Assembly: GCF_000382265.1 (NCBI RefSeq)
Contig: NZ_KB907986.1
Location: forward strand, 1-64,000
Origin: Yoonia vestfoldensis DSM 16212
GTDB lineage: Bacteria > Pseudomonadota > Alphaproteobacteria > Rhodobacterales > Rhodobacteraceae
Reading direction: 5' to 3'
DNA: 64,000 nucleotides
Below the pieces are notes generated by a model, which saw nothing but the letters and a program-made list of their open reading frames with translations, ran no database searches and was not told where the DNA came from. The translations under genes were made by a program, and so were the position numbers. The stretch's first letter is position 1. Each line of letters opens with the position of its first letter. This document shows positions 1 to 49,706 of the stretch, in pieces.

Positions 1-170
1 TAAGGGTCCAGCTTGCTGGGACGATCTGGCGCGTGAAACGCAGGTTCAACAATCCCCTCCCGCAAATACTTCTTGATCGTGTTGCGAGACACGCCCGTCC
101 GCCGCGCGATCTCGCGAATGGGCATCTTGTCACGCAGCGCCCATTTCCGGATAACTTTTAAAAATCCCAT
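1..170 (-). pseudogene. istA: IS21-family transposase IstA, N-terminal part (runs off window)
   Basis: Reading leftwards from the ATG at 168-170 gives MGFLKVIRKWALRDKMPIRE followed by a helix-turn-helix (IARRTGVSRNTIKKYLRE) and the start of a linker (FHAPDRPSKLDPY). This is the usual amino end of IstA, the DDE transposase of IS21-type elements, which needs the IstB ATPase. Only about 56 codons lie in the window, so whether the element is complete to the left cannot be judged. The repeats at 224-277 lie just upstream, as expected for an IS21 end. Confidence 0.75.
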
Positions 171-223
171 GTCTATCACTCCAAGTGCTCCCAGCTGATT
201 CAAGCCGGGGTAAGGTTGCACAT

Positions 224-277
224 GGGTCAATTCTCGATGACAATTTCTGCTGCTGCCGGGTCAGTTCTCAGTGACAA
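224..277. repeat. IS21-type terminal repeats (element end)
   Basis: Two near-identical blocks, gggtcaattctcgatgacaa at 224-243 and gggtcagttctcagtgacaa at 258-277, lie 34 bp apart between the istA start and non-IS DNA. IS21 elements carry such multiple terminal repeats that bind transposase; the element edge is probably the TGACA at about 272-276. No second copy is visible in the window, so a target-site duplication cannot be tested. Confidence 0.6.
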
Positions 278-427
278 TCAACAAAGATGGCTCAGACTCA
301 CCGTCCGCTCGGTTTGCAAATCGAAAAACCTGGGTTGCGGACTCCAGCGTCCGATTTCGTCAGGTTGCCCAATTTAGTTTGCGGGCACAGCTAAGGTCGG
401 CTCGCCGCCGATGTCGATCGCCGACCA
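278..427. other. Spacer between the IS end and the helicase locus
   Basis: 150 bases with no recognisable gene. It is the 3' flank of the DUF3427 reading frame. I see no terminator hairpin in it. Confidence 0.4.
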
Positions 428-763
428 TCAACCCTGGACGCCATACAACTCCCGCAACTGCTGTGGTACCGGCTCGGCAAGGTCGCACTGCACCGTTATC
501 GGAGCTTTGCCCTCCCAGCCTGCGAATTGCACCGGCCCAGCATAACGGAACGGGGCTGCGCGCCCATCGCGCAGTTTCGATTTTCGAAGGAACAAGTGAA
601 CCGTCCAGCCGGGCTCCACGCCAGAAATTACGCGACCGCGCATGTCGTCGCGGCGGGTACTGGTCTGGGTCTGCCAGACAAAGCGCGTAGGGCTGGCGAA
701 CTGGTCGGCGTAATGGCTGCCGACTGACATGCTACCTTTGTCCATTGTTACCAGCAGGATCAT
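428..763 (-). pseudogene. Out-of-frame C-terminal part of the DUF3427 helicase
   Basis: From an ATG at 761-763 this frame encodes 111 residues (MILLVTMDKGSMSVGSHYAD onward, ending LRELYGVQG) that read as the carboxyl end of a DUF3427 domain, with the HYADQF and FVWQTQT stretches typical of it. The main helicase ORF stops at 760-762, so the TGA stop and this ATG overlap as ATGA. The two protein parts join without a gap if one base is added or removed between about 763 and 800, so a frameshift is the simplest reading. Translational coupling through the ATGA would be an alternative that yields a split but functional protein. Confidence 0.6.
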
Positions 764-3606
764 GCTCGCACGCCCTTGAGAACTACGATACCGGCGTTCC
801 ATGACCCTGTGTTGAACACCGCTCCGAAATGCGGCGCGATCTGGTCGCGCTGGTATTCCTGCCATAGGGTCAGGCCATGGGTGGGGGCGACCGGTGCGGG
901 GGCTGCATCTTCGGCGGCTTCCGCCAGGCTGGTGCCCTCGGGCATGTCATAGGTCACATCGCGCGCTTGGAGATATCGCAGCAGCCGCCAGTCCACGAGT
1001 TCCGAGGCGAGCGCGGCAAGGGCCGCGTTCTCGCCCTCCGCAAACGTGGTTTCGAACGTGCCTGGGCCCAACTGGAACCAGACCGTCTCGGCCAGGATCT
1101 TCAGCGGTTGCTGCATTAGGACCGCGCGCAGCCGGGGCGCGTCGTCCGGATCGACGCTCAGGTCCGCCTTGATCTGCGGGTTTCGCCGGGCGAGACGGGA
1201 AACGCGCTCCACCAGGTCGCTCAGGGCGATCCGGCCTGGGAAGGCGTCGGCCTCGATCATCGCGCGCAACACCAACATCTTGTAGCTGCGGGTCATGCGG
1301 GTTGTCTCGATCTCGTCCAGAAGCGCGCGATGCGCAGTCCAGGCGGTGCGTTGCGCCTCTGAAAGGTCGCCCATGTCGGCCACGAACCCCAGCCAGCCCG
1401 CATGCCCCGTGCGGCCGGGGTTGAAGCCCGCGTGCTGCACCTCGGACGCTGTAGGCCGTGTGCCGTGGCGTTCTCGGAAGTCGCGGTAGAAGGCGGCCAG
1501 TTCCTCGCCGTCGCGCGGCTGGCGGATCAGGGACCGCAGGATGTCGAGCGCCTGCAGATCATACTGCACCTCGCAACCGACTGGGAACTGGATCAGCTTG
1601 TCGGTCAGCCGCTCTAGCGCCAGCCGCAGCGCACCGTCGCCTGCTCCTAGTTTGAGAAGCGTGCGGAACTTCGTCAGGAAAATCCGGTGGTTGCCGATAT
1701 AGTCGATGACAGCCAGATGTGTTTTCTCTGCCGACTTACGAAGGCCGCGCCCCAGTTGCTGCAGCCAGATCACCGGGCTCTCAGTCGGGCGCAGCATCAG
1801 CACTGTGTCGATCGAAGGTACGTCCACGCCTTCGTTGAACATGTCGACGGCGAAGACGATGTCGAGATCACCGTCTTCCAGCGCCTTCAGCGCGCTGGCG
1901 CGTGGGGCGGAGGTGTCCCCGGAATGGACCGCCACGGCCCGCAGGCCGCGCGCTTGCGCGAAATCGGCCATGAAATCGGCATGGCGGCGGGAAACGCAGA
2001 AGCCGATTGTCTTCTTGCCGCCGCGTTTCGCGAGCTGTTCAAGGGCATTCTCGGCGCGGGCCTGAGTGGCGACGGCTTCGGTAAGCGCAGCCTCGTCGAA
2101 CCGCCCGCTGCGCCAAGGGATCTGGGAATACTCGACCGGGTCGGGCACGCCGAAATAGTGGAAAGGGGCCAGAAGCCCCCGGTCGATACCCGACCAGAGA
2201 TCGCATTCGTAGACAAGGTTTTCCTCGCAAAGCCCCAGCAGATCACCACCATCGCTGCGGTCGGGCGTGGCGGTCAGGCCCAGCAGGAAGCCGGGCTGGA
2301 AATGGTCGATGATCCGCCGATAGGTGGCAGCGGCCGCGTGGTGGAATTCGTCGACGACGATGTAATCAAAGGCCCGGGGGTCGAACCGGGTCAGGTGCGC
2401 ATTGCGCGCGAGAGTCTGGACCGAGGCGAAGACAATGTCGGCCTCTGCGTCCTTCTCCTCGCCGTTGTAGCGTCCAAGTCGGGCGCGGGGCCGGACCGCG
2501 CGGAAGGCGGCCATGGCTTGGGTCAGGATTTCCTCTCGATGCGCGACGAACAGGACGCGGGCTGCATCCGCGCTGTCGAAGGCCGCAAGGAAGGTTTTGC
2601 CCAGCCCCGTGGCCAGCACGACCAGCCCCGCACCATAGCCTTTCGCCCGGGTTGCGCGCAGGCCCGCCAGCGCCTCGTCCTGAACCTCGTGCGGGGTGGG
2701 GGCGGTTTCCTGGGCTTCGTTAGGTGCGCCGCTGGCCGTGGGCTGGGGTGCGATGCGGCGCGCCTCGTAGGCGTCGATCCAGGCGGGCGTCAACTCGATC
2801 ACCTCGGGCCGGGCAAGCAGCGCCTCGAATGCCGCGCGGGCGGCCAGAAGCGGGGCAGGATCGACCGGATCGACATGGCGCAGGTTCCACTCAACGCCAT
2901 CGGTCAGCGCTGAGCGCGACAGGTTCGACGACCCGACGATCAGCGCCCCGCCGTCACCCGTGAAGGTGAACATCCAGGCCTTGGGGTGAAACGGGATCTG
3001 TGCGGCCTGGAACACATGCAGCCTGCGCGCGCCCTCAAGGTCGGAAATCAGCCGAAGCGCCGCCGGTTCCGTCACGCCCAGATAATCGCCGGTCAAGAGC
3101 CGCAGCACGCCGCCACGGTCTAGCAGATCGCGCAGATGCGGCAGCACCAGCCTGACGCCGGAGGTCATCAGGAAGGACACCGACAGATCGACGGCGCGCG
3201 CCCGGTCGATCATGGGACGCAGATGGGCATGCAGCGCATCTTCGCCGCCCGAGATCAGCGGGCGATCATGGGGCATGCCCGGCAAGGGACCGGGTGCCGC
3301 CAATGGCGGATCGAGGCTCAGGTGGACATGGTCGCCAGTCTCGACCAGCGTTACTCGCGCGTTCGTCCCCTCGGTCTCGAGGAGGGCTTGCGCGGGTCCG
3401 ATCCTAGCGGCAAGGGCCGCTTGCTCTCCGGCGGAAAGCTCCCCCCAGCGGGCCACATGACGGCGGGGCGCGAGAGCAAGGCCTGCGCCGTGGCGGATCA
3501 GGATAACATGGGCGTCACATTCCACGATATCGCTGGCGGCGGCATCGCATACAGAGCAGGCAGGGTTGCTTGACCCCTCAGCAGGAACACTCGATCCGCC
3601 GGTCAC
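760..3606 (-). CDS. HIT-like / phospholipase D-like / SF2 helicase / DUF3427 protein (C-terminus frameshifted)
   Basis: 948 residues. The order is: a HIT-like N-terminus (residues ~15-100) with GDHVHLSL, where the third His of the HxHxH motif is a Ser; a PLD-type nuclease-like domain (~120-270) with HPKAW and GSSNLS; an SF2 helicase (~300-650) with ATGLGKT (Walker A), VDEFHH (DExH), TATPDR and QQLGRGLRKS; and a DUF3427 region to the end. The stop at 760-762 cuts DUF3427 short; the rest lies in another frame at 428-763. The GTG start at 3604-3606 overlaps the methyltransferase stop (GTGA), so the two genes are translationally coupled. PLD-helicase-DUF3427 proteins are commonly found in accessory DNA and I infer a nucleic-acid-directed, possibly defensive role. 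Activity of this copy is uncertain because of the break. Confidence 0.8.
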   Translation of the reverse strand: MTGGSSVPAEGSSNPACSVCDAAASDIVECDAHVILIRHGAGLALAPRRHVARWGELSAGEQAALAARIGPAQALLETEGTNARVTLVETGDHVHLSLDPPLAAPGPLPGMPHDRPLISGGEDALHAHLRPMIDRARAVDLSVSFLMTSGVRLVLPHLRDLLDRGGVLRLLTGDYLGVTEPAALRLISDLEGARRLHVFQAAQIPFHPKAWMFTFTGDGGALIVGSSNLSRSALTDGVEWNLRHVDPVDPAPLLAARAAFEALLARPEVIELTPAWIDAYEARRIAPQPTASGAPNEAQETAPTPHEVQDEALAGLRATRAKGYGAGLVVLATGLGKTFLAAFDSADAARVLFVAHREEILTQAMAAFRAVRPRARLGRYNGEEKDAEADIVFASVQTLARNAHLTRFDPRAFDYIVVDEFHHAAAATYRRIIDHFQPGFLLGLTATPDRSDGGDLLGLCEENLVYECDLWSGIDRGLLAPFHYFGVPDPVEYSQIPWRSGRFDEAALTEAVATQARAENALEQLAKRGGKKTIGFCVSRRHADFMADFAQARGLRAVAVHSGDTSAPRASALKALEDGDLDIVFAVDMFNEGVDVPSIDTVLMLRPTESPVIWLQQLGRGLRKSAEKTHLAVIDYIGNHRIFLTKFRTLLKLGAGDGALRLALERLTDKLIQFPVGCEVQYDLQALDILRSLIRQPRDGEELAAFYRDFRERHGTRPTASEVQHAGFNPGRTGHAGWLGFVADMGDLSEAQRTAWTAHRALLDEIETTRMTRSYKMLVLRAMIEADAFPGRIALSDLVERVSRLARRNPQIKADLSVDPDDAPRLRAVLMQQPLKILAETVWFQLGPGTFETTFAEGENAALAALASELVDWRLLRYLQARDVTYDMPEGTSLAEAAEDAAPAPVAPTHGLTLWQEYQRDQIAPHFGAVFNTGSWNAGIVVLKGVRA

Positions 3607-4193
3607 GTCTTATTCACCACTGCATTTACCCACACCTCCGACGTCCGATCCGGGCGACAATCGCGGCTCTCCCAGAGGTCAGGTTCGTTGAACGCGCCAC
3701 ATCCGTCGAGCAACGCCGCCAGACCTTCCGCCGTCATGTCGGTAAACCGGCGTCCGTCCTTCACCCGCGCGCCGGTGCCGCGCTTGAAGGACAGGTAGAG
3801 CGCGCCACCAGGAACTAGATGGGCGGCAAGGCGGTCGACGACCCCAGACAGGTCCGCATCGGACACATGCAGTAAAGACGCGCAGGCCCAGATGCCTTCG
3901 AACGAATGCTCCCAGGCGAAATCCTCGAAACACATCAGTCGGGTCTCGACTGCCGCATGCGCTTGCGTGGCAGCAACCATGGCAGGCGAGGCATCGAAGG
4001 CCTTCACATCGTAGCCCAAGACGCGTAAAGCCAGCGCATCGCGCCCCGACCCTGATCCGGCATCGAGAATACGTGCTGGACCATTCGCCCGCGCAGGTAC
4101 AGCTGCCAGAAACCGCTCCCTTGCGTCTGACATGTCGACGTCGCGCGTGGTCGCGATGAAAATGGTAGCGTGGCGGTCGTAGTAGTCGGCCAA
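3603..4193 (-). CDS. Class I SAM-dependent methyltransferase
   Basis: 196 residues with the Rossmann SAM-binding motif ILDAGSGSGRDAL (~residue 42), an acidic residue at the end of strand 2 (VKAFDAS) and WACASLLHVSD as the post-motif region, as in the TehB/UbiE-like group. No target-recognition domain is present, so a small molecule or protein substrate is as likely as DNA. I chose a TTG start because GGAG stands 7 bases upstream and no ATG fits. Its stop overlaps the helicase GTG start, so it is the first gene of that operon. Substrate unknown. Confidence 0.75.
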   Translation of the reverse strand: MADYYDRHATIFIATTRDVDMSDARERFLAAVPARANGPARILDAGSGSGRDALALRVLGYDVKAFDASPAMVAATQAHAAVETRLMCFEDFAWEHSFEGIWACASLLHVSDADLSGVVDRLAAHLVPGGALYLSFKRGTGARVKDGRRFTDMTAEGLAALLDGCGAFNEPDLWESRDCRPDRTSEVWVNAVVNKT

Positions 4194-4380
4194 AATGGCG
4201 CTCCAATCGGTCTGATCTCATATCTTCGCTAGAAATCAGAGATTTGACCAGGTGTGGTGCAGCGGTTTTCTTATCAAAGCCGATGCAAGGCCGAGTGCCA
4301 TGCGATTAGGGGCGCAAATGGGCAAATATGCTCTGCGGTTTATAATCCAGACGACATGGGTGCGTCTTGCTTAGCCTAGC

Positions 4381-5718
4381 CTATCCGTGCTGATCACTCA
4401 GACCGATGATGCGCACCCTCGCATCTTCGAAACAGGCCCTTAGCGATTCTTTCCGGCTACCAAGGCCCTGCACGCAATAAGTATTTAAAAACTGCCGCCC
4501 GGCAAAAAGCTTGGCATCCACGGGGCTCAGTGCCGCCTCGTCGCACAAGGCTGCCCAGTTTTCAGAAATGGTCTCGATCTGTCGTGCGATGATCGCGGCA
4601 GCATCGTCTTCGCTCAGGTGGTAATCGGTCGCCGCCGACAGGCAGGCGGCAAGCGTGCTCATCCGCGACCCGCCCTTGATCAGCATCGCTTGGGTCGCCT
4701 CGTTGCCTGCGCGGCCCTGCGGGCAAATGTCATAGGCTGGCGTCAGAGTCAGCATCTTGCCGTCCCAGAAGGCGGCATGGTTGCGCGCGTGATCGTCGAT
4801 GTTCCCGCAGAGCACGTTGAAGCAGATCCGCCCGTAAAGCTCGCGCAGCGTTTCCTTGGGATCGGCGAAGCGGTGGCGGATTAACTCGGCAAGGTCCTCG
4901 TAGGACGCATAGCGCGCTTCCATCTCGCCCAGACCCAGAATGGTCAGCGCCGAGACCATGGCGCGGCGGTGCCATCCGGCCTCCGCTTTGATCCGGTCGA
5001 AACGTTCGATCAGTAGCACGTCCTTGCCCGCCGTCTCGAAAATCGCGACACGGGCCACATTCAGCCCTGACAGCGCCGCCAGACGCATAGCTATGAACTC
5101 TGCCTTCACGACGCTGTAGACGTCCTTGCTGGACGAGAATTTGGCGATCAGCTTGCGGTCGTCATCGTCGATCAGTGCTTTGGGTCGGGCGCCACCGATC
5201 GAGGTGCCATGATGGATCGCCTGGTCCAGCGTCGGCGTCAGGGGCAGGCCCTTTTCCACGCGGTCCGCGGCCTCAATCAGCTCCTGATAGCTCGCCTGCG
5301 TCGACAGACGTGGGACGTATTCGCTGGCTGAGTGCTGGAAATCCAATGCGCCGATCCTGTCCGAGCCGGATTCGAGCAGGTAGGTCAGTTCGTTCAACTC
5401 GCCCGCGCCTTGATCCGCGGCTTTTGGGCCGACGAGCCGGTTGATGATCACGCGGCGGCCCCAGGCGTCTGGCGATCCGTCGCGCAGGCAGCTGGCCATT
5501 TCCATGTTCGGCGGCGGATCGAGCCGGCCACGTCGGAGGGGCAGCTCGGGCGTGTAAAGAGGGATGGCGTTTGCCCGGTCCAGATAGCTTGCACCATAGT
5601 TGAAGGCGTAGCGGCCGCCCTCAGACGTGATGCGACCGGCCACGACTGGCTCGGTCTCGCCCGGCAACCAGACCCAGACGAAGGCGCTGTCAGGTGTCCT
5701 GCGGTCAGAAGTCATCAT
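4381..5718 (-). CDS. hipA: HipA-family serine/threonine kinase toxin
   Basis: 445 residues. HipA toxins are kinases; the E. coli protein phosphorylates glutamyl-tRNA synthetase GltX and so stops translation. Visible motifs are the N-terminal subdomain (AGRITSEGGRYAFNYG), the phosphate-loop-like GTSIGGARPK, the catalytic NIDDHARNHAAFW and the metal-binding YDICP. Length agrees with full HipA proteins. The start used is the ATG at 5716-5718 with GGAGG a few bases upstream; an adjacent ATG at 5713-5715 is equally possible. It overlaps the end of hipB by 14 bases, so toxin and antitoxin are coupled. No defect seen. Confidence 0.88.
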   Translation of the reverse strand: MMTSDRRTPDSAFVWVWLPGETEPVVAGRITSEGGRYAFNYGASYLDRANAIPLYTPELPLRRGRLDPPPNMEMASCLRDGSPDAWGRRVIINRLVGPKAADQGAGELNELTYLLESGSDRIGALDFQHSASEYVPRLSTQASYQELIEAADRVEKGLPLTPTLDQAIHHGTSIGGARPKALIDDDDRKLIAKFSSSKDVYSVVKAEFIAMRLAALSGLNVARVAIFETAGKDVLLIERFDRIKAEAGWHRRAMVSALTILGLGEMEARYASYEDLAELIRHRFADPKETLRELYGRICFNVLCGNIDDHARNHAAFWDGKMLTLTPAYDICPQGRAGNEATQAMLIKGGSRMSTLAACLSAATDYHLSEDDAAAIIARQIETISENWAALCDEAALSPVDAKLFAGRQFLNTYCVQGLGSRKESLRACFEDARVRIIGLSDQHG

Positions 5719-6037
5719 CGACCTCCGTACGGGAAGGGCGGACACTCTTGGGCAGAAGGGTCAACTTTTCGGCAAGCCGGGCGTTTTCCGTGCGCAGGGC
5801 CGCGTCGTCCTGGTCGAACAGGCGAACGCCTGACAATGCCGCGGCCTCGAACACGGTGCCGATCTCGGGCCCCGGCGCGCCCTTCTCGATGTTGTAAAGC
5901 GTTGTGCGGCTGATGCCGACGCGGTCTGCGAGTTCTTGCGCCGTCATCCCGCGCTCCATGCGCCCGATCCGGATCAACTTGCCTAGAACCGACAGGGCTT
6001 CACGCGTCTGGCGCGCGTAGGTTCTTTTGCGCTTCAT
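5705..6037 (-). CDS. hipB: HipB-type XRE antitoxin/repressor
   Basis: 110 residues from the ATG at 6035-6037, which has TGGAG 7 bases upstream; an earlier in-frame ATG at 6056-6058 has no clear ribosome site. A Cro/C1-type HTH occupies residues ~23-75 (MTAQELADRVGISRTTLYNI). In the family HipB neutralises HipA and represses the operon by binding upstream operators. The C-terminus is longer than E. coli HipB and ends in acidic residues (EVDDDF). Candidate operators lie at 6060-6190. Confidence 0.85.
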   Translation of the reverse strand: MKRKRTYARQTREALSVLGKLIRIGRMERGMTAQELADRVGISRTTLYNIEKGAPGPEIGTVFEAAALSGVRLFDQDDAALRTENARLAEKLTLLPKSVRPSRTEVDDDF

Positions 6038-6059
6038 GGTGGGCTCCAGACGTGTCATT

Positions 6060-6190
6060 CAGTTTGATGGACGTGAGCTTTCCTTGCGTCCGCTTAGTTG
6101 AACATCGTTGGCGTGACTTGATACCATTGTCAATGCATTCGTTCGGTTAAATGAACATTTGGCATCGTTGTGTTTACTTAAATGGACGCT
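6060..6190. promoter_or_regulatory. Candidate hipBA operator array
   Basis: Upstream of hipB the sequence is AT-richer than its surroundings and carries four related boxes containing TGRAC: gtttgatggacg near 6062, cttagttgaacat near 6093, cggttaaatgaacat near 6144 and acttaaatggacg near 6175. A GGACG...CGTCC inverted repeat (6069-6073 and 6087-6091) overlaps the first. XRE antitoxins bind such repeated sites, but which box HipB uses is inferred. Confidence 0.4.
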
Positions 6191-6439
6191 ATCAGTCCCT
6201 TCTGGTCGATAGAGGGCGTTGCGCGACTTCAAATTTCGACGAGGCCGCCCGAAGCGAGACATGTTCCTCGATGACCAAGGCCGGTCGGCATTCGGTGACC
6301 TGCCTCGCCGACGCGACTGATCTCTGCTTGCAGTCCGTGGACTATATAGCTCGAGCACTGTATTCTTGTAATATAGCTCATGAACTATAGGTGTCGGCCG
6401 ATGGACTTGTCCTTGTTTCCGATCCGAAGCCTGCGCTAG
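6191..6439. other. Non-coding spacer with a partial direct repeat
   Basis: About 250 bases without a supported gene. Near the end, atatagctc occurs at 6344-6352 and again at 6371-6379, each next to ctata/ctatag sequence. They may be an operator for one of the flanking HTH genes. Nothing else is recognised. Confidence 0.35.
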
Positions 6440-6676
6440 GCAGGTGTTGCGCTCCGCGCCCGGCGGATCGCGCGAAAGCTCAGCCAGAAGGCGTTGGGCA
6501 AGATGACCGGCACCGCCCAGTCCACCATTTCGGACGTCGATAATAGCGTCGTGTCCGTGAGCCTTGATGTCTATTTGCGCCTTCTCGAGGCTCTTGGTGC
6601 CGAGCTGTCAGCCAAAGACCGTCAGGTTGACGGGGCGAGCACTGATCGCGTAAATCGTCTTGATTTGCTGCCATAG
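6440..6676 (+). pseudogene. Orphan XRE-type HTH fragment without a good start
   Basis: The open frame after the stop at 6437-6439 reads ALRARRIARKLSQKALGKMT, then TAQSTISDVDNSVVSVSLDV, a complete Cro/C1-type HTH like the antitoxins of HipB-like pairs, and ends with TAG at 6674-6676. No ATG, GTG or TTG precedes the first HTH helix in this frame; the first usable start (TTG 6494) would delete half the domain. I therefore call it a remnant. No toxin-like partner follows it. Confidence 0.5.
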
Positions 6677-6706
6677 CTCAACAATCTTGGGTCCCGACCC
6701 CGGCGA

Positions 6707-7285
6707 TCAATAGGACGCCGGCCCTTTCGATTGCACCCCCTCCAGCGCCTTGTCGACCTTGCGCGTCTTTGCGGCCAACTGTGCCTCCCACAGGATGCGA
6801 AACGCCTCGGCGAATTCGACCAGCCCCCCGGCGAAGGTGCGGATCGTGGTCATGTCATCGTCGGTAAACGGGATCGGGCGGCCGCGCAATTTGGCCTCGT
6901 TCAGCTTGCGGGCGATGTGGTTGACAGCGGTGCCTTCGGTCGCGACCTGCGCGCACTAGGCTTGCAGATGGTCCAGCACGACCGGATCGACCGGACACAG
7001 CAGGATGTCGGCCGCCCCCATAAGGCGGCGCAGCGCGGCAGGTTGGTCGGTGATGCCGCGGCGCTCAAGCGCGCCCTGGAACCCCTTCAGCTGGCGTGCG
7101 CTCAGGCGGGTGCTGATCGTCGTGGTGGGGCCAGGGCGCGTGCCTTTGGCCCGGCTCAGCGTGTTGTAGATCGTCCGGATCGAGACGCCGAAGCGGCGGG
7201 CCAGCACGGCGGCAGGCGTGCCCCCGGCGCGTGCCTCGATGATCTGGCGGCGTTCGTCGTCGGTCAGTTTGCGATGGTGGCGCAT
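6707..7285 (-). pseudogene. MobC-like plasmid mobilization protein with N-terminal HTH, split by amber stop
   Basis: From the ATG at 7283-7285 the frame encodes 109 residues: an HTH (residues ~5-45, LARRFGVSIRTIYNTLSRAK) and a MobC-like segment (LSARQLKGFQGALERRGITD). TAG then follows at 6956-6958. In the same frame, translation continues for 83 more codons to 6707 without another stop and contains VATEGTAVNHIARKLNEA, which resembles the conserved gNNLNQIARxLN block of MobC relaxosome proteins. One base change therefore separates two halves of one ancestral gene of about 192 codons. MobC proteins help the relaxase act at oriT. No relaxase gene is in the window. Confidence 0.6.
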
Positions 7286-7579
7286 GTGAAGTTTACGTTC
7301 CTATTTCTTGCCAACTTCCTCCAAGCCTCCCGCCTCCCAGCGTCAGCGGAGGCGGGTCAGCGGCTTGGAGTCCGTTTCGGTGGGTTCTCTCGGCGGGACG
7401 GGCTGCGGGATGCGCGATGCGGGAAACGCGATACGCGCAACACAGTACAGTACACCGGACGCGGCGCAAAGGACGCGATGCGAACGACACGGCGCAGGGG
7501 ACGCAGGACAGGGCGCACGCTTCGGAAAGCGCGATGCACAACACGCGATACGCGGCGCATTTTGCAGAGGACGCGCCGT
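7286..7579. repeat. Irregular GCGATRCG repeat tract
   Basis: This 294-base gap between the mob-like and rep-like genes has unusual composition. The octamer GCGATRCG or a one-base variant occurs at 7414-7421, 7428-7435, 7475-7482, 7531-7538 and 7545-7552, embedded in a purine- and CG-rich sequence with cagtacagtac near 7443. ORFs drawn through it are low-complexity and not credible. Between replication-type and mobilization-type genes, an origin (iterons) or oriT is possible but unproven. Confidence 0.4.
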
Positions 7580-8391
7580 TCATCCCGCCAAGCCCGCGGC
7601 GCGCAACTGGCCGTCGGTCACCAGCCCCGCCGCCACCAGCGCGGTCACCTGCGGGGCGGTGATGTGTTTGCACATCGGGCTGCGGTCGCGCACCCAAGCG
7701 GCCAGCCGTGGATGATGATCGGCGGCCAGCGTTGTTCGGGCCTCTCGTTCATCGGCCGCCACTTCGAGGAAGCGCTGCCAGCGGCGGCCAGCGAACCAGT
7801 TGTCGGCGAAACAGACCTTCGCACGTGTGAAACCCGCGCTCTCGGTCGCGTAGGCCTGCACGGCGCGCAGCAGGTCGTCCGGGTTGATCCCCTCGGCCAG
7901 CGCTTCGACAATCGCGCTCAGACTCGCCGCCTTCCCGCGCTGCCAGTCCTTCGGGTAGGCAGCCCAGATCTTCTCAACCCTGTCATCTACCGCCGCCTCC
8001 GCGCGCTTGCGCGTAGGTGGTTTATGGACGGTTTTAGGGTGGTTTGGGGTCCACGCTGGACGGGGTCCACTGTGGACCCCGTCCCTTCGTCAGGTTCGGC
8101 AGAGCTTTCCAGCGCCATCACCCGGTCCAGCGCGATCCGGTAGATCACGGTGAATCCGTTCTTGCAGGGCCGCCGCCCGGTCTCGACCAGGATGCCCTCG
8201 CGCAGGAAATCGGTGATGGTCCGCTTGACCGTGCTTTCGCCCAGCTCGGTGTGGCGCTGGATCGTGCCCTTGGAGCACCAGATGCCGGAGCCGTCGTCGC
8301 TCGCCTTATCGGCCAAGAACATGATGATCTGTTTGCGCGAGGCGCTGCCGAAGATCCGGTCGGCGCAGAGATTGGCGACCTTCCAACTCAT
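7580..8391 (-). pseudogene. Phage/plasmid replication-type HTH protein, frameshifted
   Basis: The start at 8391 (MSWKVANLCADRIFGSASRK) opens a 134-residue frame with a winged HTH (ASRKQIIMFLADKASDDGSG and TIQRHTELGESTVKRTITDF) that ends at 7987. A second frame covers about 8013 down to 7580, with KIWAAYPKDWQRGKAASLSA and ATESAGFTRAKVCFADNWF, a C-terminal module typical of phage and plasmid replication proteins of Rhodobacterales. The two join as KPSINH/PPTRKRAEA if one base is gained or lost near 8013-8020. I read it as one inactivated replication or regulatory gene of the mobile element. Confidence 0.6.
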
Positions 8392-8601
8392 GCGCGGGCC
8401 CCCGGGAAGGAGGCGCGGCGCCCCCTTGACCGTGATGGATCAAACCGCTTGACAGAACGGAAAACGCCTCCGCACCATCCGCCCAAAGCCCCTTTCCGGG
8501 CCCACAAATGGTTTGACAATCGGCCCGTAAGTGCCTGATTTTCCATGGTGGGTTTGACAGAAATTTCGCGCCTAACCGACTGATCTTCCATCCACAATTT
8601 G
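8392..8601. other. Spacer with degenerate direct repeats beside the att site
   Basis: TTGACA occurs at 8449-8454, 8513-8518 and 8554-8559. The last two belong to a longer degenerate direct repeat, a gtttgaca start and a CTGATYTTCCAT end (8535-8546 and 8580-8591). Adjacent to a tRNA-type attachment site, these could be integrase arm sites; promoter -35 boxes are the plainer alternative. No gene seen. Confidence 0.35.
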
Positions 8602-8649
8602 GGATTGAAAATCCTCGTGTCGGTGGTTCGATTCCGCCCCCGGGCACCA
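8602..8649 (+). other. tRNA-Phe 3' fragment, probable attachment site (island boundary)
   Basis: The stretch contains an anticodon stem-loop (ggattGAAaatcc, anticodon GAA), variable region, T-arm (ggtggttcgattccgcc) and 3' acceptor strand cccgggc followed by ACCA. It matches the 3' two-thirds of a typical alphaproteobacterial tRNA-Phe. The acceptor 5' strand (gcccggg) and D-arm are absent upstream, so no tRNA can be made. Tyrosine-recombinase elements inserting at tRNA 3' ends leave such a copy at their far end, which places the element to the left (1 to about 8650) and the intact tRNA-Phe gene beyond the left edge. No integrase gene is in the window. Confidence 0.65.
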
Positions 8650-8697: not shown

Positions 8698-10923
8698 TCA
8701 GAAACTGAATTGCATACCGACAAATCCGGATATCGCGCTTTGCCCGGTGATGTTGCCGTCGTTTCGGCTGTGCATGAGGCCGACGCTCAGATTGCCCGCT
8801 CGGGACACGGGAACCTGATATGCGAGGCCCAGATCAAGCTGACGTGCGACTGGCGCAAGGCTGATATCGTGGCTGGCAAAACGAACCTGGCCATTCGTCA
8901 ATTGCACCGGCAAATCCATGCGCGCCGACCCCCGCGTTATGCCGATCGGCTGGCGGACGAAAATCGAGAGGACATCCCCCGCTTTGCGGACATCCGCCTG
9001 CGCAACAGCCAGCCCGACCCGGTCATAGCTGAGCGCGCCGAGATTGCTGAGCAGTCCCGCGCCGTCCCCTGTCGCGATGCCGATCTCTGCGGTCATGCGC
9101 AGGGCTGTGACCGGCGACAGGCCAGCTGCCACATCGATATGCAGCGCATTGGTGACAGAGCTGATGTCATCCGCATTGCCGGGCTGGCCGATGCCAAGGA
9201 TCGTGCCATCCGTGCGCATCGTCGTCAGCCCGACTTGCGCCTGCCCCCAAGCCAGATCAAACCTGCGATGCAGCGAGAGCCCGGTCGTTGCGTTGCCTGT
9301 GACGAGCGCGGCACCAAGATCGCCCTGCGGCGCCGTGAGCGGAACAATTTCGCCGCCCAAAAGCTCGGCGCCGGATTGATCGCGCCAGGCATTCCGATAG
9401 CCGGCAAGATCACCGCCGCCGCGGATTGCAGCGTTCATCGCGTGACGGTTGCCCCCCATATCGGTCCGCAACACCGCCATCAACGCCGCGGCCGCGGGGT
9501 CTTCGCGGCGGTCAGTGCCCGCCAACACGGCTCCGGACACCGAAAAACTGCCGTAAAGCTGGTCCGTGGTCAGAATATCCACAGCGGCCAAGGCCTGCGA
9601 CAACCCGTCCCCGACAGCTGCGCCAGCCGTGATCGCCGCCGTGCCCAGATCAACAAAGCCACCATCGGCCATCGGCACGATTGCCTGCCCGATCGGCAGC
9701 AAGGCCGACCGGAGATCCAGAAAGCCGTGCCCGAATTCCGCGTTGTATCCATGCGTGATGCCCGGCGCGAATTCGTGCACGAAGTCATGCGTGAAAAATC
9801 CATTGTCCGCCGTCGCAAGCAGCCTGTCGCGCAATTGCGCAGCGCTCAGTTCGGGGAACGCCTCGGCCAAAAGCGCGATGGAGCCTGCGACCTGCGGCGC
9901 AGCAAAGGAGGCACCGACGCCGATCTGATAGCTGCTGTCGCTGCTTTGCGCGGCAACCTTGATCTGCCCGTTCGCCGCCATGCAGAATCGCGCGGTTTCA
10001 AGACAGGCCGTGGACACGCGTATTGCGTCCCTGATGCCGGTATCGTCGAATTCGGGGATCACGTTGATCACGCTGATCCAGTTGGCTTCCAGGTCAGGGG
10101 CGCCCAGGGGCAGCGCCGCCATCAGGCTTGCACTCGTGGCATTGTAATCGTTTTGCAGCGCGAACACGATCACACCGTCTTTTGCAAAGGTGCGCAGGCC
10201 GCTGACATAGGGGCGCGTCGCCCACAGGAAACTGCCCATGTCGCTGTTCTGGACGGTCTTGTCGGCCAGACCCCAGGAATTGTTGGATACAATCGCGCCG
10301 ATCTGGGCTGCGTCGCGCATGTGGTTGCCAAGCGTCGACCAGCTGACCGAGGTTGCATAATTCAGATAGCCTTGATGAAGGTCGGCCCCCGGCGCAAAGC
10401 CAAGAGTGCCGCCGTTCGTCCCGTTTCCCGCCAACACAGACGCGACGGCGGTGCCATGAAAATCGCCCGATGCAGGTGCGCCCCCGGACGTATGGATCGT
10501 CTTGCCGCTGAATTGGTCGTGCGACAGCCGGATACCATCGTCGATCATCGACACTGTCTGCCCCGCCCCGGTCAGCCCCGTTGACAGCGCGTAATCAAGC
10601 CGTGCCGCAACAAGCGGGTGCGATCTGACGATCCGGCCACCACCACGAAAGACCGGGTGGGCGGTGACGCGCAGGTTGAAACCAAAGCTGTTCGCGACAA
10701 AGCCCGACAGGCTGCGTATCCGTTGCACGTCTGCCGGATCGAATTCCGTAACGAAGTACCGGTTCCAAGGAAAAGGGTTGTCGCCCGACGTCGTGCCGAT
10801 GATCGCCGGGGGCCCATCATCGGGCGGCGCGGTGACGACGCCTCCGGCTGTCCCCGACCCTGCGTCATCCAGATTGCAGGCTGCAAGCGAAAACAGCAGA
10901 ACAAGAGAGAGCGATCTTTTCAC
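8698..10923 (-). CDS. Subtilisin-like (S8) serine protease, lipoprotein with probable C-terminal barrel
   Basis: 741 residues from a GTG at 10921-10923, chosen because AAGGA lies about 9 bases upstream and the frame begins with a signal peptide and lipobox (LFSLAAC). The S8 triad is visible: Asp in SMIDDGI (~residue 130), His in DFHGTAVASVLAG (~155) and Ser in GASFAAPQVAG (~340), with SNNSWG for the oxyanion hole. Residues ~430-741 are Gly/Ala-rich, strand-like and end in Phe (FVGMQFSF), as in autotransporter or outer-membrane barrels. Role: probable surface-exposed or secreted protease; substrate unknown. It is the first core gene right of the tRNA-Phe fragment. Confidence 0.75.
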   Translation of the reverse strand: MKRSLSLVLLFSLAACNLDDAGSGTAGGVVTAPPDDGPPAIIGTTSGDNPFPWNRYFVTEFDPADVQRIRSLSGFVANSFGFNLRVTAHPVFRGGGRIVRSHPLVAARLDYALSTGLTGAGQTVSMIDDGIRLSHDQFSGKTIHTSGGAPASGDFHGTAVASVLAGNGTNGGTLGFAPGADLHQGYLNYATSVSWSTLGNHMRDAAQIGAIVSNNSWGLADKTVQNSDMGSFLWATRPYVSGLRTFAKDGVIVFALQNDYNATSASLMAALPLGAPDLEANWISVINVIPEFDDTGIRDAIRVSTACLETARFCMAANGQIKVAAQSSDSSYQIGVGASFAAPQVAGSIALLAEAFPELSAAQLRDRLLATADNGFFTHDFVHEFAPGITHGYNAEFGHGFLDLRSALLPIGQAIVPMADGGFVDLGTAAITAGAAVGDGLSQALAAVDILTTDQLYGSFSVSGAVLAGTDRREDPAAAALMAVLRTDMGGNRHAMNAAIRGGGDLAGYRNAWRDQSGAELLGGEIVPLTAPQGDLGAALVTGNATTGLSLHRRFDLAWGQAQVGLTTMRTDGTILGIGQPGNADDISSVTNALHIDVAAGLSPVTALRMTAEIGIATGDGAGLLSNLGALSYDRVGLAVAQADVRKAGDVLSIFVRQPIGITRGSARMDLPVQLTNGQVRFASHDISLAPVARQLDLGLAYQVPVSRAGNLSVGLMHSRNDGNITGQSAISGFVGMQFSF

Positions 10924-11295
10924 GTCGTCTGGTCCTTTGTCAGATGCCTGTCGGATCAAAGGCCCCGAGTGTTAAAAAACCCCTTCAGTCGCTGGACTGA
11001 TCGCTTAAAACACTATGAAAAATTGGGGCTTTTCAGTCCGCCAAGGCGCAAGCACAGGCAAGACCGCCTGCGCGCAATCGGTGACTTTCGCGTCCCGACG
11101 CCCTGGGCGATCGCAGGTCTGCGATGTCAAAAACCTGTGTCAGATGCGGCGTGATCGGTGCTGCCTTTCGGCACGGGGCTGCATCATCGCGCCAAGGTCA
11201 GGCGGCCTCTGTCGGTAATCGTCAAATGCAGTTGCAAACGCTTCTCATTTGCATACATATTGCGAACACCACGTCACGATTCGAAGGAAACCCGC
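10924..11295. other. Divergent promoter region between protease and metal importer
   Basis: 372 bases with no supported gene. It must hold the promoters of both divergent genes. A candidate operator is listed separately at 11233-11253. The segment around 10972-11030 is AT-rich with cagtcgctggactgatc, which could be a weak hairpin. Confidence 0.4.
11233..11253. promoter_or_regulatory. Inverted repeat TGCAAA-N9-TTTGCA, candidate metalloregulator operator
   Basis: TGCAAA at 11233-11238 and TTTGCA at 11248-11253 form a perfect 6-bp inverted repeat 42 bases upstream of the metal-binding protein start, in an AT-rich patch. Fur-superfamily regulators (Mur, Zur) and MntR use short inverted repeats at this kind of place in metal importer promoters. 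Which regulator acts is inference only. Confidence 0.4.
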
Positions 11296-12279
11296 ATGTT
11301 GGCCAAAAGGTTGAACCCCACACTTGTCGCGACGGCTGCCGCCATCGCAATCACAACGCCTGCCCTGTCGCAGGACCAGCCGCTGAACGTATTGACCACC
11401 GTTACGATGATTGCGGATGTTGCGGCCAATGTGGCGGGCACATGCGCCGAGGTCACTTCGCTGCTGGGTGCTGGCAGCGATCCGCATCTTTACCGGCCGA
11501 CCGCAGCGGATGTCCAAAAGCTCGCCAGTGCTGATCTGATCCTCTACGTCGATCCCGCACTCGAGGCGCGACTGGCCGAGGTGCTGGCGGGCTTCACCGA
11601 CAGAACCGCGACAGTCGGCCTTGCGCGCGCGGCCTTTGACGACAGCATATTGATGGGCGATGCCGAAGACGCGGATCAGATCGACCCGCATCTGTGGATG
11701 GATGTCAGCCTCTGGGCACGGATTGCCCCCGTGATCGCCGATGCCATCGCCGCCCAGCGCCCCGATTGCGCCAGTGATCTGGCCGCGAATGTCGCGGATT
11801 ACACGGCCCAACTGGACGCCCTGCATGGGTGGGTGACAGCCGCGATCGGTTCGATCCCCGAGGACCAGCGCCTGTTGGTCACCGCACATGACGCGTTCGA
11901 ATATTTCGCTGCGGGCTATGATATGCAAGCCTCGGAAGCCATCGAAGGCATCAGCACTGAATCCGAGGCGAGCATCGCAGATATCCGCGGTGTCGCGGCC
12001 TTTGTCGCTGACAGCGGCGTGCCTGCGGTTTTTGTCGAAACCACCATCAACCCCCGCACGATCGAGGCATTGGTCGCAGAGGTACAAAGCCAAGGCCATG
12101 ATGTCGTCATCGGCGGCGCGTTGTTTTCGGACGCGATGGGTGATGACGGCACCCCCGAGGCGACCTATATCGGAATGATCCGCGCCAATACGGTCACTCT
12201 CACCGAAGCGCTTGGCGGAGAGCTGCCGGACTGGCCTGCGGCGTTGCAGGACTGGGCGCAGGATTGGAACTTGGACTGA
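11296..12279 (+). CDS. Metal ABC transporter substrate-binding protein (TroA-like, Mn/Zn)
   Basis: 327 residues with a signal peptide cleaved around ALSQDQ. It is a cluster A-I periplasmic metal-binding protein. The metal ligands of the family can be placed: His in SDPHLYRPT, His in DPHLWMD, His in TAHDAFEYF and Asp in ALFSDAMG, a H-H-H-D set as in TroA of Treponema, which takes Zn and Mn. There is no long His-rich loop, which argues against a dedicated ZnuA. Start: ATG 11296 with GAAGGAAA upstream. The importer ATPase and two permeases follow. Confidence 0.85.
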   Translation: MLAKRLNPTLVATAAAIAITTPALSQDQPLNVLTTVTMIADVAANVAGTCAEVTSLLGAGSDPHLYRPTAADVQKLASADLILYVDPALEARLAEVLAGFTDRTATVGLARAAFDDSILMGDAEDADQIDPHLWMDVSLWARIAPVIADAIAAQRPDCASDLAANVADYTAQLDALHGWVTAAIGSIPEDQRLLVTAHDAFEYFAAGYDMQASEAIEGISTESEASIADIRGVAAFVADSGVPAVFVETTINPRTIEALVAEVQSQGHDVVIGGALFSDAMGDDGTPEATYIGMIRANTVTLTEALGGELPDWPAALQDWAQDWNLD

Positions 12280-12337
12280 CGCCACCGCGCTAGCGGCGCA
12301 TGGCTTGCCCTGCGCCGCCCGCACTGGAGAGATGATG

Positions 12338-13111
12338 ATGCGTGACGACACCCTGCACGAGCCTGATCAGGCGCTGCATGTCGAGGACCTGACCGTCACC
12401 TACGGCGCCAATCCGGTGCTATGGGACATCGACCTTGATGTCCCGCCCGGTGTGATGTGCGCCATCGTCGGCCCCAATGGAGCGGGCAAATCGACGCTGA
12501 TCAAGGCGGCGCTCGGACTGGTGCGCCCGGTGGCAGGTCATGTCCGTTTTCTGGGTCGTCCCATCGGGCAGATGCGCGGGCAGATCGGCTATGTCCCGCA
12601 GCGCCACAGTGTTGACTGGGATTTCCCCACAACCGCGCGCGATGTGGTGGAAATGGGGCTTTACCGGCATCTGGGCTGGCTGCGTCGTCCGGGCAAGGCC
12701 GAACATGCCCGCGCGCTGGCGGCCTTGGCCGAGGTCGGGATGCAGGATTATGCCGACCGCCAGATCAGCCAGTTGTCGGGCGGCCAGCAGCAGCGCGTCT
12801 TTATCGCCCGCGCCCTTGTGCAGGACGCACCTATCCTGATCCTTGACGAACCGATGGCGGGCGTCGATGCCAGCACCGAGGCGATCATCATCGCCCTGCT
12901 GAAAAAACTGCGCGACGCCGGGCGCACAATCATCGTCGTGCATCACGACCTGACAACCGTGCAAAGCTATTTCGACTGGCTGGTCATGCTGAACGTCCGC
13001 ATCATCGCGCAAGGCCCAGTCAGTGAGACCTATTCGGCGGATAACCTGCGCGCGGCTTATGGCCGTCATCTGGCGATGATCGCGGTGCCCGCAGAGGAAC
13101 CTGCGCCGTGA
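12338..13111 (+). CDS. Metal ABC transporter ATP-binding protein (TroB-like)
   Basis: 257 residues. Walker A GPNGAGKST, signature LSGGQQQRVFIARAL, Walker B LILDEPMAGVD and the switch His in VVHHDL are all intact. It powers the importer formed with the permeases downstream. Three consecutive ATGs (12332, 12335, 12338) follow GGAGA; I took the third for its spacing. The TGA stop overlaps the GTG start of the next gene (GTGA). Confidence 0.87.
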   Translation: MRDDTLHEPDQALHVEDLTVTYGANPVLWDIDLDVPPGVMCAIVGPNGAGKSTLIKAALGLVRPVAGHVRFLGRPIGQMRGQIGYVPQRHSVDWDFPTTARDVVEMGLYRHLGWLRRPGKAEHARALAALAEVGMQDYADRQISQLSGGQQQRVFIARALVQDAPILILDEPMAGVDASTEAIIIALLKKLRDAGRTIIVVHHDLTTVQSYFDWLVMLNVRIIAQGPVSETYSADNLRAAYGRHLAMIAVPAEEPAP

Positions 13112-14262
13112 CCGCAATCGCCGCTCTGCTGTCCAGCAGTATCGTTCAGACCGTTCTGGTCGGTGCGGCGATCCTTGGGGCGATTTCAGGGATGCTCGGG
13201 GCTTTTGCCGTTCTGCGGCGGCAGAGCCTTCTGGGCGACGCGCTGAGCCATGCCGCCCTGCCCGGCGTCTGTCTGGGTTTCCTGATCGCGGGCGGGCGCG
13301 ATCTGGGCAGCGTGATGGCCGGAGCCTTTGCCACAGGCGCGCTTGCCGCGCTGATCATGATGCTGATCGTGCGGCGCACCACGCTCAAGACCGACGCCGC
13401 ACTTGGCATCGTGCTGAGCGTGTTTTTCGCGGTCGGGATTGTCCTGCTGACGGTGATCCAGTCAGAGGGCGGATCCGGCAGCCTTGGGTTGATGACTTTC
13501 CTCTTCGGGCAGGCCGCCGCGATCCTGCGGAGCGATCTTTGGATCATGGGCGGGATCGGCCTTGCCGCCTTGATGCTGGTGCTGGCCTTGTGGAAGGAAT
13601 TCAAACTGGTCAGCTTCGACGCCGATTTCGCGCGTGCGCAGGGCTTTCCGGTCACCGTGCTGGAGGCCGGGCTGACCGTGATGGTGGCCCTCGCCATCGT
13701 TGTGGGCTTGCAGCTTGTCGGCGTGGTTCTGATGGTGGCGCTGCTGATCGCACCGGCGGCAGCCGCGCGGCAATGGACCAATTCGCTGGGCGGCATGGTG
13801 CTGTTGTCAGCCTTGATCGGGGCTGCGTCCGGTGCGGGAGGCGCATTGGTCAGCGCCACGACACGGGGGCTGGCCACCGGCCCGGTCGTGGTGCTGATCG
13901 CCACGGGCATCGTTGTCGTGTCCTTGCTGGTCGCCCCCGGGCGGGGGCTTTTGTGGCAGGCAGCCGCGACGCGTCAGGCGCGCGCACGGATCAGCGACGG
14001 GCGGGTGCTGGCCACCTTGCAAGGCTTTGCGCGGATGCATGACGACGCGGGCTATCCGTCCGAGCGCGGCATGTTGCAGGTCGCCTTGGGCGCCAAGCCG
14101 CCCGCAGCACGGCTGGCATCGCTAGAAAGCCGCGGGTTGATCCGGTCGGTCATGCATCCGCCCGAAACCACCCCGCATTGGGAACTGACGACCGCGGGCC
14201 ATACCGAGGCGGCCGCTTTATCAGGCCAGCCGGGCGACACCGCGAAGGGGGGCACGGAATGA
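13108..14262 (+). CDS. Metal ABC transporter permease with C-terminal winged-helix-like domain
   Basis: 384 residues, starting with GTG in the GTGA overlap. Residues ~1-280 form an ABC-3 type membrane domain (GAISGMLGAFAVLRRQSLLG, then DALSHAALPG, the usual signature). Residues ~290-375 are soluble: QGFARMHDDAGYPSERGMLQ, LASLESRGLIRSV, HWELTTAGHTEAA read as a winged helix of the DtxR/MntR kind. TroC-type permeases with such tails are known in other bacteria; the tail may sense metal or gate transport, but that is inference. Confidence 0.83.
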   Translation: MTAIAALLSSSIVQTVLVGAAILGAISGMLGAFAVLRRQSLLGDALSHAALPGVCLGFLIAGGRDLGSVMAGAFATGALAALIMMLIVRRTTLKTDAALGIVLSVFFAVGIVLLTVIQSEGGSGSLGLMTFLFGQAAAILRSDLWIMGGIGLAALMLVLALWKEFKLVSFDADFARAQGFPVTVLEAGLTVMVALAIVVGLQLVGVVLMVALLIAPAAAARQWTNSLGGMVLLSALIGAASGAGGALVSATTRGLATGPVVVLIATGIVVVSLLVAPGRGLLWQAAATRQARARISDGRVLATLQGFARMHDDAGYPSERGMLQVALGAKPPAARLASLESRGLIRSVMHPPETTPHWELTTAGHTEAAALSGQPGDTAKGGTE

Positions 14263-15380
14263 TCGCCGCCTTCTTCAACTCAATCCCGATGATGATCGTG
14301 CTGACCGGCGTGCTGACAGGGATTTCGGCGGCGCTGCTGGGATCGTTCCTGATCCTGCGCGGCAATGCGATGCTGACCGATGCGATCAGCCATTCCATCG
14401 TCTTCGGGATCATCGTGGTCTGGCTGCTGACAGGCCAGACGTCGGGCCCGGTACAAGTGTTGGGCGCGGCCATCACGGGCGTGCTGACGGTAGTGTTGTC
14501 CGAGCTTCTGGCACGATCACGGCTGGTCAAGATGGACGCCGCGATCGGGCTGGTCTTTCCCGCCCTTTTTGCCGCCGGTGTGATCCTGATTTCGATCAAC
14601 GCGCGCAACGTGCATCTGGACGTCGACAGCGTCCTGCTGGGCGAGATCGGGTTTGTCTGGCTCAATACTGTGCCGCTGTTCGGCGTCAATGTCCCTGTTG
14701 CCGTGGCCACGCTTGGCGTGGTGACGGTCGCGAACCTTGCCTTCGTGCTGGTGTTCTGGAAAGAGCTGAAGCTTGCGACATTCGACGCAGGACTTGCTGC
14801 CGCGCTGGGGTTCCTGCCGGGCATCTTGCATTATGCGATCCTGACGCTGACCAGCGTGACGGCAGTCGCGGCTTTTGACGCGGTCGGCGCGATCCTGTTC
14901 ATCGCGTTTGTGATCGTCCCGCCTGCAACCGCCTATCTGTTGACCCGCCGCCTATGGCTGATGGTCGTGCTGGCAGTGGTTTTTTCGGTCGCAGCCTGTG
15001 TCAGCGGCTATTTTCTGGCCCTGCGCTGGAATGTGTCGATTGGCGGCATGATGGCCAGCATGACCGGCGTCTGGTTCGCGCTGGCCTTGCTGTTCGCGCC
15101 GGCGCAGGGGTTGATCGCACAGGCGCTGCGCTGGCGGACCGAGCGGTTGGACCATGATTGCCGGGCGCTGGTGGCGCATCTTTTCACCCATCAGGACACC
15201 CCCGCCATGGCCGAGGAAAACACGCTGCGCGCCTTGGTGGATCACCTGCGCTGGACCGAGCCGCGTGCCCGCGCCGCCGTGCTGCGCGCACATGACCGCG
15301 ATCTGATCGAACGCCGCGCGGGGCTTTTGGCCCTGCGCCCGAAAGGCAAGGCCGAGGTGGAGGCGATCTTTGGCCGCTAA
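14259..15380 (+). CDS. Second metal ABC transporter permease with C-terminal winged-helix-like domain
   Basis: 373 residues. The ATG overlaps the previous stop (ATGA). The ABC-3 membrane domain carries ALLGSFLILRGNAMLTDAIS; the tail from about residue 290 (HQDTPAMAEENTLRALVDHL, LRAHDRDLIERRAGLLALRP) resembles a winged helix. Two non-identical permeases point to a heterodimeric TroCD/SitCD-like channel. It is the last gene of the operon; a GC-rich stem-loop follows at 15430. Confidence 0.83.
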   Translation: MIAAFFNSIPMMIVLTGVLTGISAALLGSFLILRGNAMLTDAISHSIVFGIIVVWLLTGQTSGPVQVLGAAITGVLTVVLSELLARSRLVKMDAAIGLVFPALFAAGVILISINARNVHLDVDSVLLGEIGFVWLNTVPLFGVNVPVAVATLGVVTVANLAFVLVFWKELKLATFDAGLAAALGFLPGILHYAILTLTSVTAVAAFDAVGAILFIAFVIVPPATAYLLTRRLWLMVVLAVVFSVAACVSGYFLALRWNVSIGGMMASMTGVWFALALLFAPAQGLIAQALRWRTERLDHDCRALVAHLFTHQDTPAMAEENTLRALVDHLRWTEPRARAAVLRAHDRDLIERRAGLLALRPKGKAEVEAIFGR

Positions 15381-49668: not shown

Positions 49669-49706
49669 GGGGGGTGAAATCGGGCAGAATCGGTTTGACA
49701 CCCCCC
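49669..49706 (+). terminator. Stem-loop after cydAB
   Basis: GGGGGGTG (49669-49676) and CACCCCCC (49699-49706) can pair as an 8-bp stem with a 22-base loop between the cydB stop and the tRNA gene. There is no clear T-run, so this is a candidate only. Confidence 0.35.

Follow-up and report, generated by a model that had tools for sequence, protein, structure and literature searches.

The half tRNA-Phe gene at positions 8602–8649 of the window (the whole stretch of 64,000 nucleotides analysed here, which is the start of contig C14 of the Yoonia vestfoldensis draft genome, G000) is very probably attR, the right boundary of an island that a tyrosine integrase put into the sole tRNA-Phe gene detected in the genome. 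The left end lies on contig C3, and complete elements of Marivita lacus (G094) and Rhodobacter sp. NTK016B (G106), together with a MAG contig (L152), provide the comparison. The exact right edge of the island is now fixed in the draft genome, and the left 8.6 kb of the window are best read as decayed foreign cargo. The features of this region are the following.

1–283, minus strand: end of an IS21-family element, with the start of istA at 3–170 and the terminal inverted repeat at 258–283 (NF033546 IS21 transposase, 5.9e-10 over 56 aa, below the full-length cut-off)
437–3606, minus strand: cargo helicase, type IV restriction-like (ResIII and Helicase_C above their cut-offs, PLD-like just below)
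3603–4193, minus strand: SAM-dependent methyltransferase, cargo, unbroken (Methyltransf_25, 4.6e-12; 85% over 196/197 aa of the L152 homologue)
4381–5745, minus strand: HipA-family gene with an open frame (HipA_C, 9.9e-49)
5705–6058, minus strand: HipB-like HTH antitoxin candidate with an open frame (HTH_3, 5e-10; TIGR03070 below cut-off)
6716–7285, minus strand: HTH regulator of the element backbone, with an in-frame stop (from the translation; the first ORF ends at 6956)
7583–8391, minus strand: right-end HTH/rep-like backbone gene, frameshifted (alignment to the 285-aa homologues requires two frames, −1 and −3)
8285–8604, plus strand: right end of the element, on the element side of the probable attR (290/320 against the right end of G094, 282/320 against that of G106)
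8510–8559, plus strand: two GGTTTGACA repeats (8510–8518 and 8551–8559), possible integrase arm sites (motif count)
8602–8649, plus strand: displaced tRNA-Phe 3′ half, very probably attR (TTGAAAA, the start of the relatives' displaced copies, is at 8605 here, in the anticodon loop)
8698–10959, minus strand: S8 serine peptidase, first gene outside the island (Peptidase_S8, 2.2e-26)

The two ends of the island

The fragment reads GGATTGAAAATCC...GGGCACCA and is identical at 48/48 positions to the 3′-terminal part of an intact tRNA-Phe gene with anticodon GAA at C3:267747–267821 (plus strand), 1.7 kb from the end of that contig. The two copies diverge directly to the left of 8602 and directly to the right of 8649, in agreement with the initial annotation, which had described a 48-base tRNA-Phe 3′ match with no 5′ half. 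ARAGORN and Rfam (at the gathering threshold) call no tRNA at 8602–8649, as expected for half a gene. A search of the 3.72 Mb draft (45 contigs) with the last 47 bases, allowing up to three mismatches, finds the fragment and the C3 gene and no third copy. The C3 gene is the only tRNA-Phe gene within this limit of three mismatches, and a more divergent one may be present among the 44 tRNA genes. The same 47-base pattern has no match in 100 shuffles of the window, and a reversed control pattern has none in the genome.

The annotation had interpreted the fragment as the product of integration at a tRNA 3′ end and placed the intact gene beyond position 1, where an integrase was to be looked for beside it. 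Both are indeed found, on another contig, which supports this interpretation. A tyrosine integrase frame adjoins the C3 tRNA-Phe gene on the minus strand and ends 48 bases past the CCA; its C-terminal piece matches Phage_integrase (3.3e-15) and its N-terminal piece matches Phage_int_M (1.3e-5, just under the cut-off). Next to it is a gene of 78 residues, without a Pfam match, that by eye has the look of an excisionase; a homologue of it precedes the integrase, on the upstream side, at 45 of the 54 loci of the integrase family described below. The istB end of an IS21 element then extends to the end of the contig. Contig C14 begins inside an IS21 element, and the istA start in the window and the istB end on C3 both match IS21 models. 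Their orientations fit a single IS21 copy bridging the two contigs, which the assembly leaves unjoined; C3 ends in IS21 facing the way that a run into window position 1 requires.

The terminal repeat of IS21 has 32 exact copies in the genome, at contig ends (including 258–283 of the window). Seven other pairs of IS21 ends share target duplications of 6–9 bases and could be used for joining contigs. Between the IS21 flanks of C3 and C14 there is no target duplication of at least four bases, and both ends are unpaired. With 32 IS21 ends and no common target duplication, the assembly alone is therefore no proof of the link between C3 and C14. Contig C33 (16.6 kb), likewise with two unpaired IS21 ends, is a possible middle piece; by eye its ORF list has no recognisable integrase or island gene, and it carries no copy of the tRNA-Phe 3′ end.

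The elements of relatives argue strongly for the C3–C14 link. In G094 and G106, a complete element, in each case the second of an array, lies between two tRNA 3′ halves that are 20.4 and 20.8 kb apart, respectively. The 320 bases 3′ of the C3 tRNA match the left ends of these elements at 295/320 (G094) and 290/320 (G106) positions, and the 320 window bases before the crossover match their right ends at 290/320 and 282/320. Eight elements of a sister branch have 247–259 aligned identities at the left end and 183–200 at the right end, and 30 random stretches of G094 compared with the right end in the window average 170, the highest value being 178. Because both ends match both ends of single elements in relatives, the fragment is best explained as the attR of an island that is integrated here and spans no less than 10.4 kb, this being the length seen (C3 267774–269540 plus window 1–8649). 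In two further complete elements, L133 and L170, the rep-like gene also adjoins attR. L152 matches C3 with 92% identity along 1539 bases that stop precisely where IS21 starts, and matches window 405–4254 with 88.5% identity, in the same order and orientation as here and in one contig. The two matching blocks are separated by about 5 kb (L152:4725–9710) with strong matches to GajA and GajB (Gabija), at the place where our copy has IS21; a search with L152 finds no match to this stretch in our genome. The simplest reading is probably a deletion of about 5 kb linked to IS21, which would also explain the missing target duplication. The match between the L152 contig and the window does not extend past 4254, and that genome has its other tRNA 3′ copy on a separate contig with a different element side, so that L152 bears on just the left end and the helicase–methyltransferase cargo.

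The first seven bases of displaced copies in other genomes are TTGAAAA, which make up the anticodon loop, and the bases before them differ. This fits a crossover in the anticodon loop, one of three tRNA-gene sublocations named in the Islander study (PMC4383910). Our copy has three extra identical bases, GGA, which, since G094 and G106 share them, would be part of the half-site of this subfamily. The attP of the element would have carried a copy of the tRNA-Phe 3′ half, and a crossover at TTGAAAA would have regenerated a complete gene as the left boundary (attL, on C3), with the former 3′ half remaining as the right boundary (attR, 8602–8649). From left to right the island would consist of tRNA-Phe, integrase, xis-like gene, IS21, helicase, methyltransferase, hipA/hipB, HTH regulator, rep-like HTH gene, and attR, an IS21 event having probably removed about 5 kb. 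The motif GGTTTGACA occurs three times in the window (the third copy at 49692) versus 0.27 expected, and one exact and one single-mismatch copy lie 3′ of the intact C3 tRNA. The repeats near the two element ends are possible integrase arm sites.

Right flank and alternative explanations

The genes to the right of the fragment had been described as ordinary chromosomal ones; they are normal in kind but patchily distributed in the genus. This is the case for the cluster of the S8 peptidase and a metal-ABC transporter (8698–15380), whose transporter permease is found in 4/56 genus genomes, ours included (E of 1e-60 or better). From the S8 gene rightward the block is largely collinear with the genomes G016 and G029, where the same cluster lies 44 kb and 59 kb, respectively, beyond their own tRNA fragments. 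Hence, the chromosome to the right of the fragment changed in one lineage or the other, a change that does not touch the island reading. The annotation had also called for a comparison with relatives lacking the island, and this succeeded in part: no fragment lies beside the cluster in G016, G029, and G068, but no clean empty site with our right flank is found. The best ungapped match to the fragment in these three cluster loci, which are close copies from the same genus, is 25–27/48, and at other loci with an S8 gene (L092, L093, L094, and L099) it is 23–25/48. When 40 of the 44 kb between the G016 fragment and the S8 gene are compared with our genome, one finds scattered partial matches, the longest with 67–72% identity over 1.1–1.9 kb. 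Within up to ~18 kb 3′ of tRNA-Phe in 17 genus genomes (20 stretches), the right-flank proteins have only paralogue-level matches (25–38% identity).

Several observations count against an island ending in attR at this position, namely the unjoined contigs, the 32 IS21 ends and the lack of a common target duplication at the two ends concerned, the possible place of C33 between them, the restriction of the L152 match to the left end and the helicase–methyltransferase cargo, the interrupted integrases of G094 and G106, the missing empty site, and the different placement of the right-side genes in G016 and G029. In an alternative, the fragment would be the attR of another element, older than the present one and part of a tandem array, the C3 integrase belonging to another island and more island DNA lying in the gap, where C33 could be placed. 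Tandem arrays are common at this site, with three same-strand copies on a single contig in 6/30 genomes and with 6/54 integrases adjoining a displaced fragment. However, one finds only two copies of the 3′ end in our genome, both ends belong to one subfamily and correspond, in G094 as in G106, to the left and right ends of a single element, and L152 joins our type of integrase to the helicase–methyltransferase cargo in a single contig; this alternative is therefore improbable. Still more improbable is that the half tRNA is a relic of an ordinary duplication or rearrangement, for example by IS21, without any integration. Like other displaced copies, it has its boundary in the anticodon loop, IS21 is absent at the fragment, and the conservation of the element side of the junction in other genera contradicts this explanation, in spite of the many IS21 copies in the genome and of a right flank placed differently from G016 and G029. 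A chance match, or a degenerate tRNA gene that has nothing to do with mobile DNA, has no point in its favour and is contradicted by the 48/48 identity and the empty shuffled and reversed controls to an extent that makes its probability negligible.

Cargo and decay

Among the genes to the left of the fragment, the annotation had listed an IS21 end, a helicase, hipBA, a mob-like gene, and a rep-like gene. IS21, the helicase, and HipA are clear, the HipB-like protein falls below the cut-off, and the rep-like gene has a single match, to HTH_36, which is sub-threshold. The mob-like assignment is not confirmed: the unbroken homologue (191 aa) matches HTH families and no mobilization family. Neither the eight left-side ORFs of the window nor two unbroken right-end homologues of G106 match a relaxase or MobC, and genes for a relaxase and NikA/MobC are present in the sister-branch elements. 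No Pfam match to phage structural genes is found among the eight left-side ORFs. Both results refer to the assembled part of the element. G+C content is 0.636 in the island versus 0.626 to its right, a difference that is uninformative.

The helicase matches the PADLOC family mREase_IV (type IV restriction enzyme) at 3.9e-104 and thus would represent cargo of a defence type, with a broken frame. Its ORF covers 760–3606, the frame is broken near 763–778, and the C-terminal part is in another frame at 437–778; the unbroken homologue of L152 (1068 aa) aligns in the two frames with 92% and 91% identity. Frame breaks relative to unbroken homologues also affect the integrase and the rep-like gene, and an in-frame stop interrupts the HTH regulator, whose homologues in G106 and G094 align over 189–190 residues in a single frame (83–87%). 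The methyltransferase is whole, and hipA and hipB have open frames, as judged without a close unbroken homologue. On the right side of the window, 15/15 genes of the block collinear with G016 align in one frame, and a general sequencing error is therefore unlikely. The element is thus decayed; excision by its own integrase would be unlikely and its mobility presumably lost. According to our criterion, the integrase is uninterrupted in 35 of the 54 family loci, interrupted in 15, and near a contig edge in 4. Those of G094 (L146) and G106 (L169) are interrupted, and the one of L152 is whole.

Use of the tRNA-Phe site and comparison with known systems

The integrase family consists of 54 named loci found with the full-length integrase of the same-genus genome G033. 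The integrase adjoins an intact tRNA-Phe gene in 41 loci, a displaced tRNA-Phe fragment in 6, neither in 6, and a contig edge in 1. Judging from these neighbours, the family targets tRNA-Phe (47/54 loci adjoin the gene or a fragment). In L175, from an uncultured Pleomorphomonas and one of the six loci beside neither, a 49% identical integrase adjoins tRNA-His instead. Among 30 genomes with family loci, 24 have a match to the tRNA 3′ end; three same-strand copies are found in one contig in 6 and two in 7, and in these 13/30 genomes the spacing is 10–32 kb. Within the genus, a 34-base tRNA-Phe pattern matches in 48/56 genomes and matches at least twice in 13/56. The 5′ neighbour of the tRNA-Phe copy is rng in 23/25 fetched same-genus loci, and in most of the 25 the 3′ flank varies between genomes by eye. 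Because our integrase family is found in only 4/56 genus genomes, ours included, other integrases probably use the same tRNA-Phe site. G033 and G015 have no second fragment within three mismatches of the 34-base pattern. In G033 (L083, ~13937–14313) there is a decayed tRNA-Phe 3′ remnant ~12 kb further on, followed by integrase remains, which corresponds to an older tandem element. The genome G062 has seven copies of the tRNA-Phe 3′ end (at most 3 mismatches over 34 bases), each on a contig of its own (L184–L190), one of them in the intact gene, possibly reflecting integration at secondary sites. Two copies in opposite orientation, ~550 bases apart, are found at G104:C13:58508–59147.

The elements of the family carry genes of type I restriction-modification, PD-Lambda-4, CBASS-type E1-E2/JAB, and Pnkp ligase, in gene lists that are approximate because the ORFs of relatives were called by a simple script. 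For example, L133:3736–7729 is a Pnkp-ligase RNA repair gene within a tRNA-Phe island, with a Hen1-like neighbour by eye. At 1e-15, 259 PADLOC families have a match among the ORFs of ten complete elements versus 32 among an equal number of ORFs from the chromosomal side of the tRNA, counts that refer to families rather than proteins and are inflated by overlapping models and by the longer island ORFs. The comparison includes 101 island ORFs and 101/118 control ORFs (17 of L147 and L156 were omitted to equalise the numbers), and the greater length of the former (44,265 residues in 101 ORFs versus 36,652 in all 118 controls) favours island matches. It is about an even chance that a single integrase lineage devoted to the tRNA-Phe anticodon loop provides a standing dock for defence cargo across Rhodobacterales, where arrivals would regenerate the tRNA, displaced fragments would become landing places, arrays of two to three elements would form, and integrase decay would fix the elements. 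As this single site is reused across many genera, defence genes of Rhodobacterales can be searched for between the repeats.

The integration event is of an ordinary kind, at a site that related elements of these bacteria reuse repeatedly; searches of the open-licence literature listed no paper on a tRNA-Phe island family from the group. Anticodon-type crossovers account for 2083/3919 Islander islands (PMC4383910), and our island resembles these tDNA islands in its regenerated tRNA gene, its displaced 3′ fragment, the integrase between them, and its anticodon-type crossover. It differs from them in having its ends on two contigs and a broken integrase gene. The tRNA gene and 3′ fragment are present, with an integrase (of broken frame) between them. 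The Islander order, with the fragment downstream, in the same orientation, and on the same replicon, fits if C3 runs through IS21 into C14, and Islander lengths of 2–200 kb compare with at least 10.4 kb seen here, the interior being unassembled. With the elements of G094 and G106 it shares the integrase, the xis-like gene, the end sequences, and the right-end HTH genes, and with L152 the integrase and the helicase–methyltransferase cargo. The elements of G094 and G106 also carry other cargo, their helicases being ~50% identical to ours and the HipA genes of G106 ~27%. Ours is smaller than these two as far as seen, holds an IS21, and lacks the Gabija genes that L152 carries. In E. coli, tRNA hotspots are already known to hold defence cargo (PMC10121019). 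With the integrative and mobilizable elements described there, the sister-branch elements share their relaxase and NikA/MobC genes, whereas the ORFs of our window match neither a relaxase nor MobC; like those of E. coli, the island combines an integrase with defence-type cargo at a tRNA hotspot.
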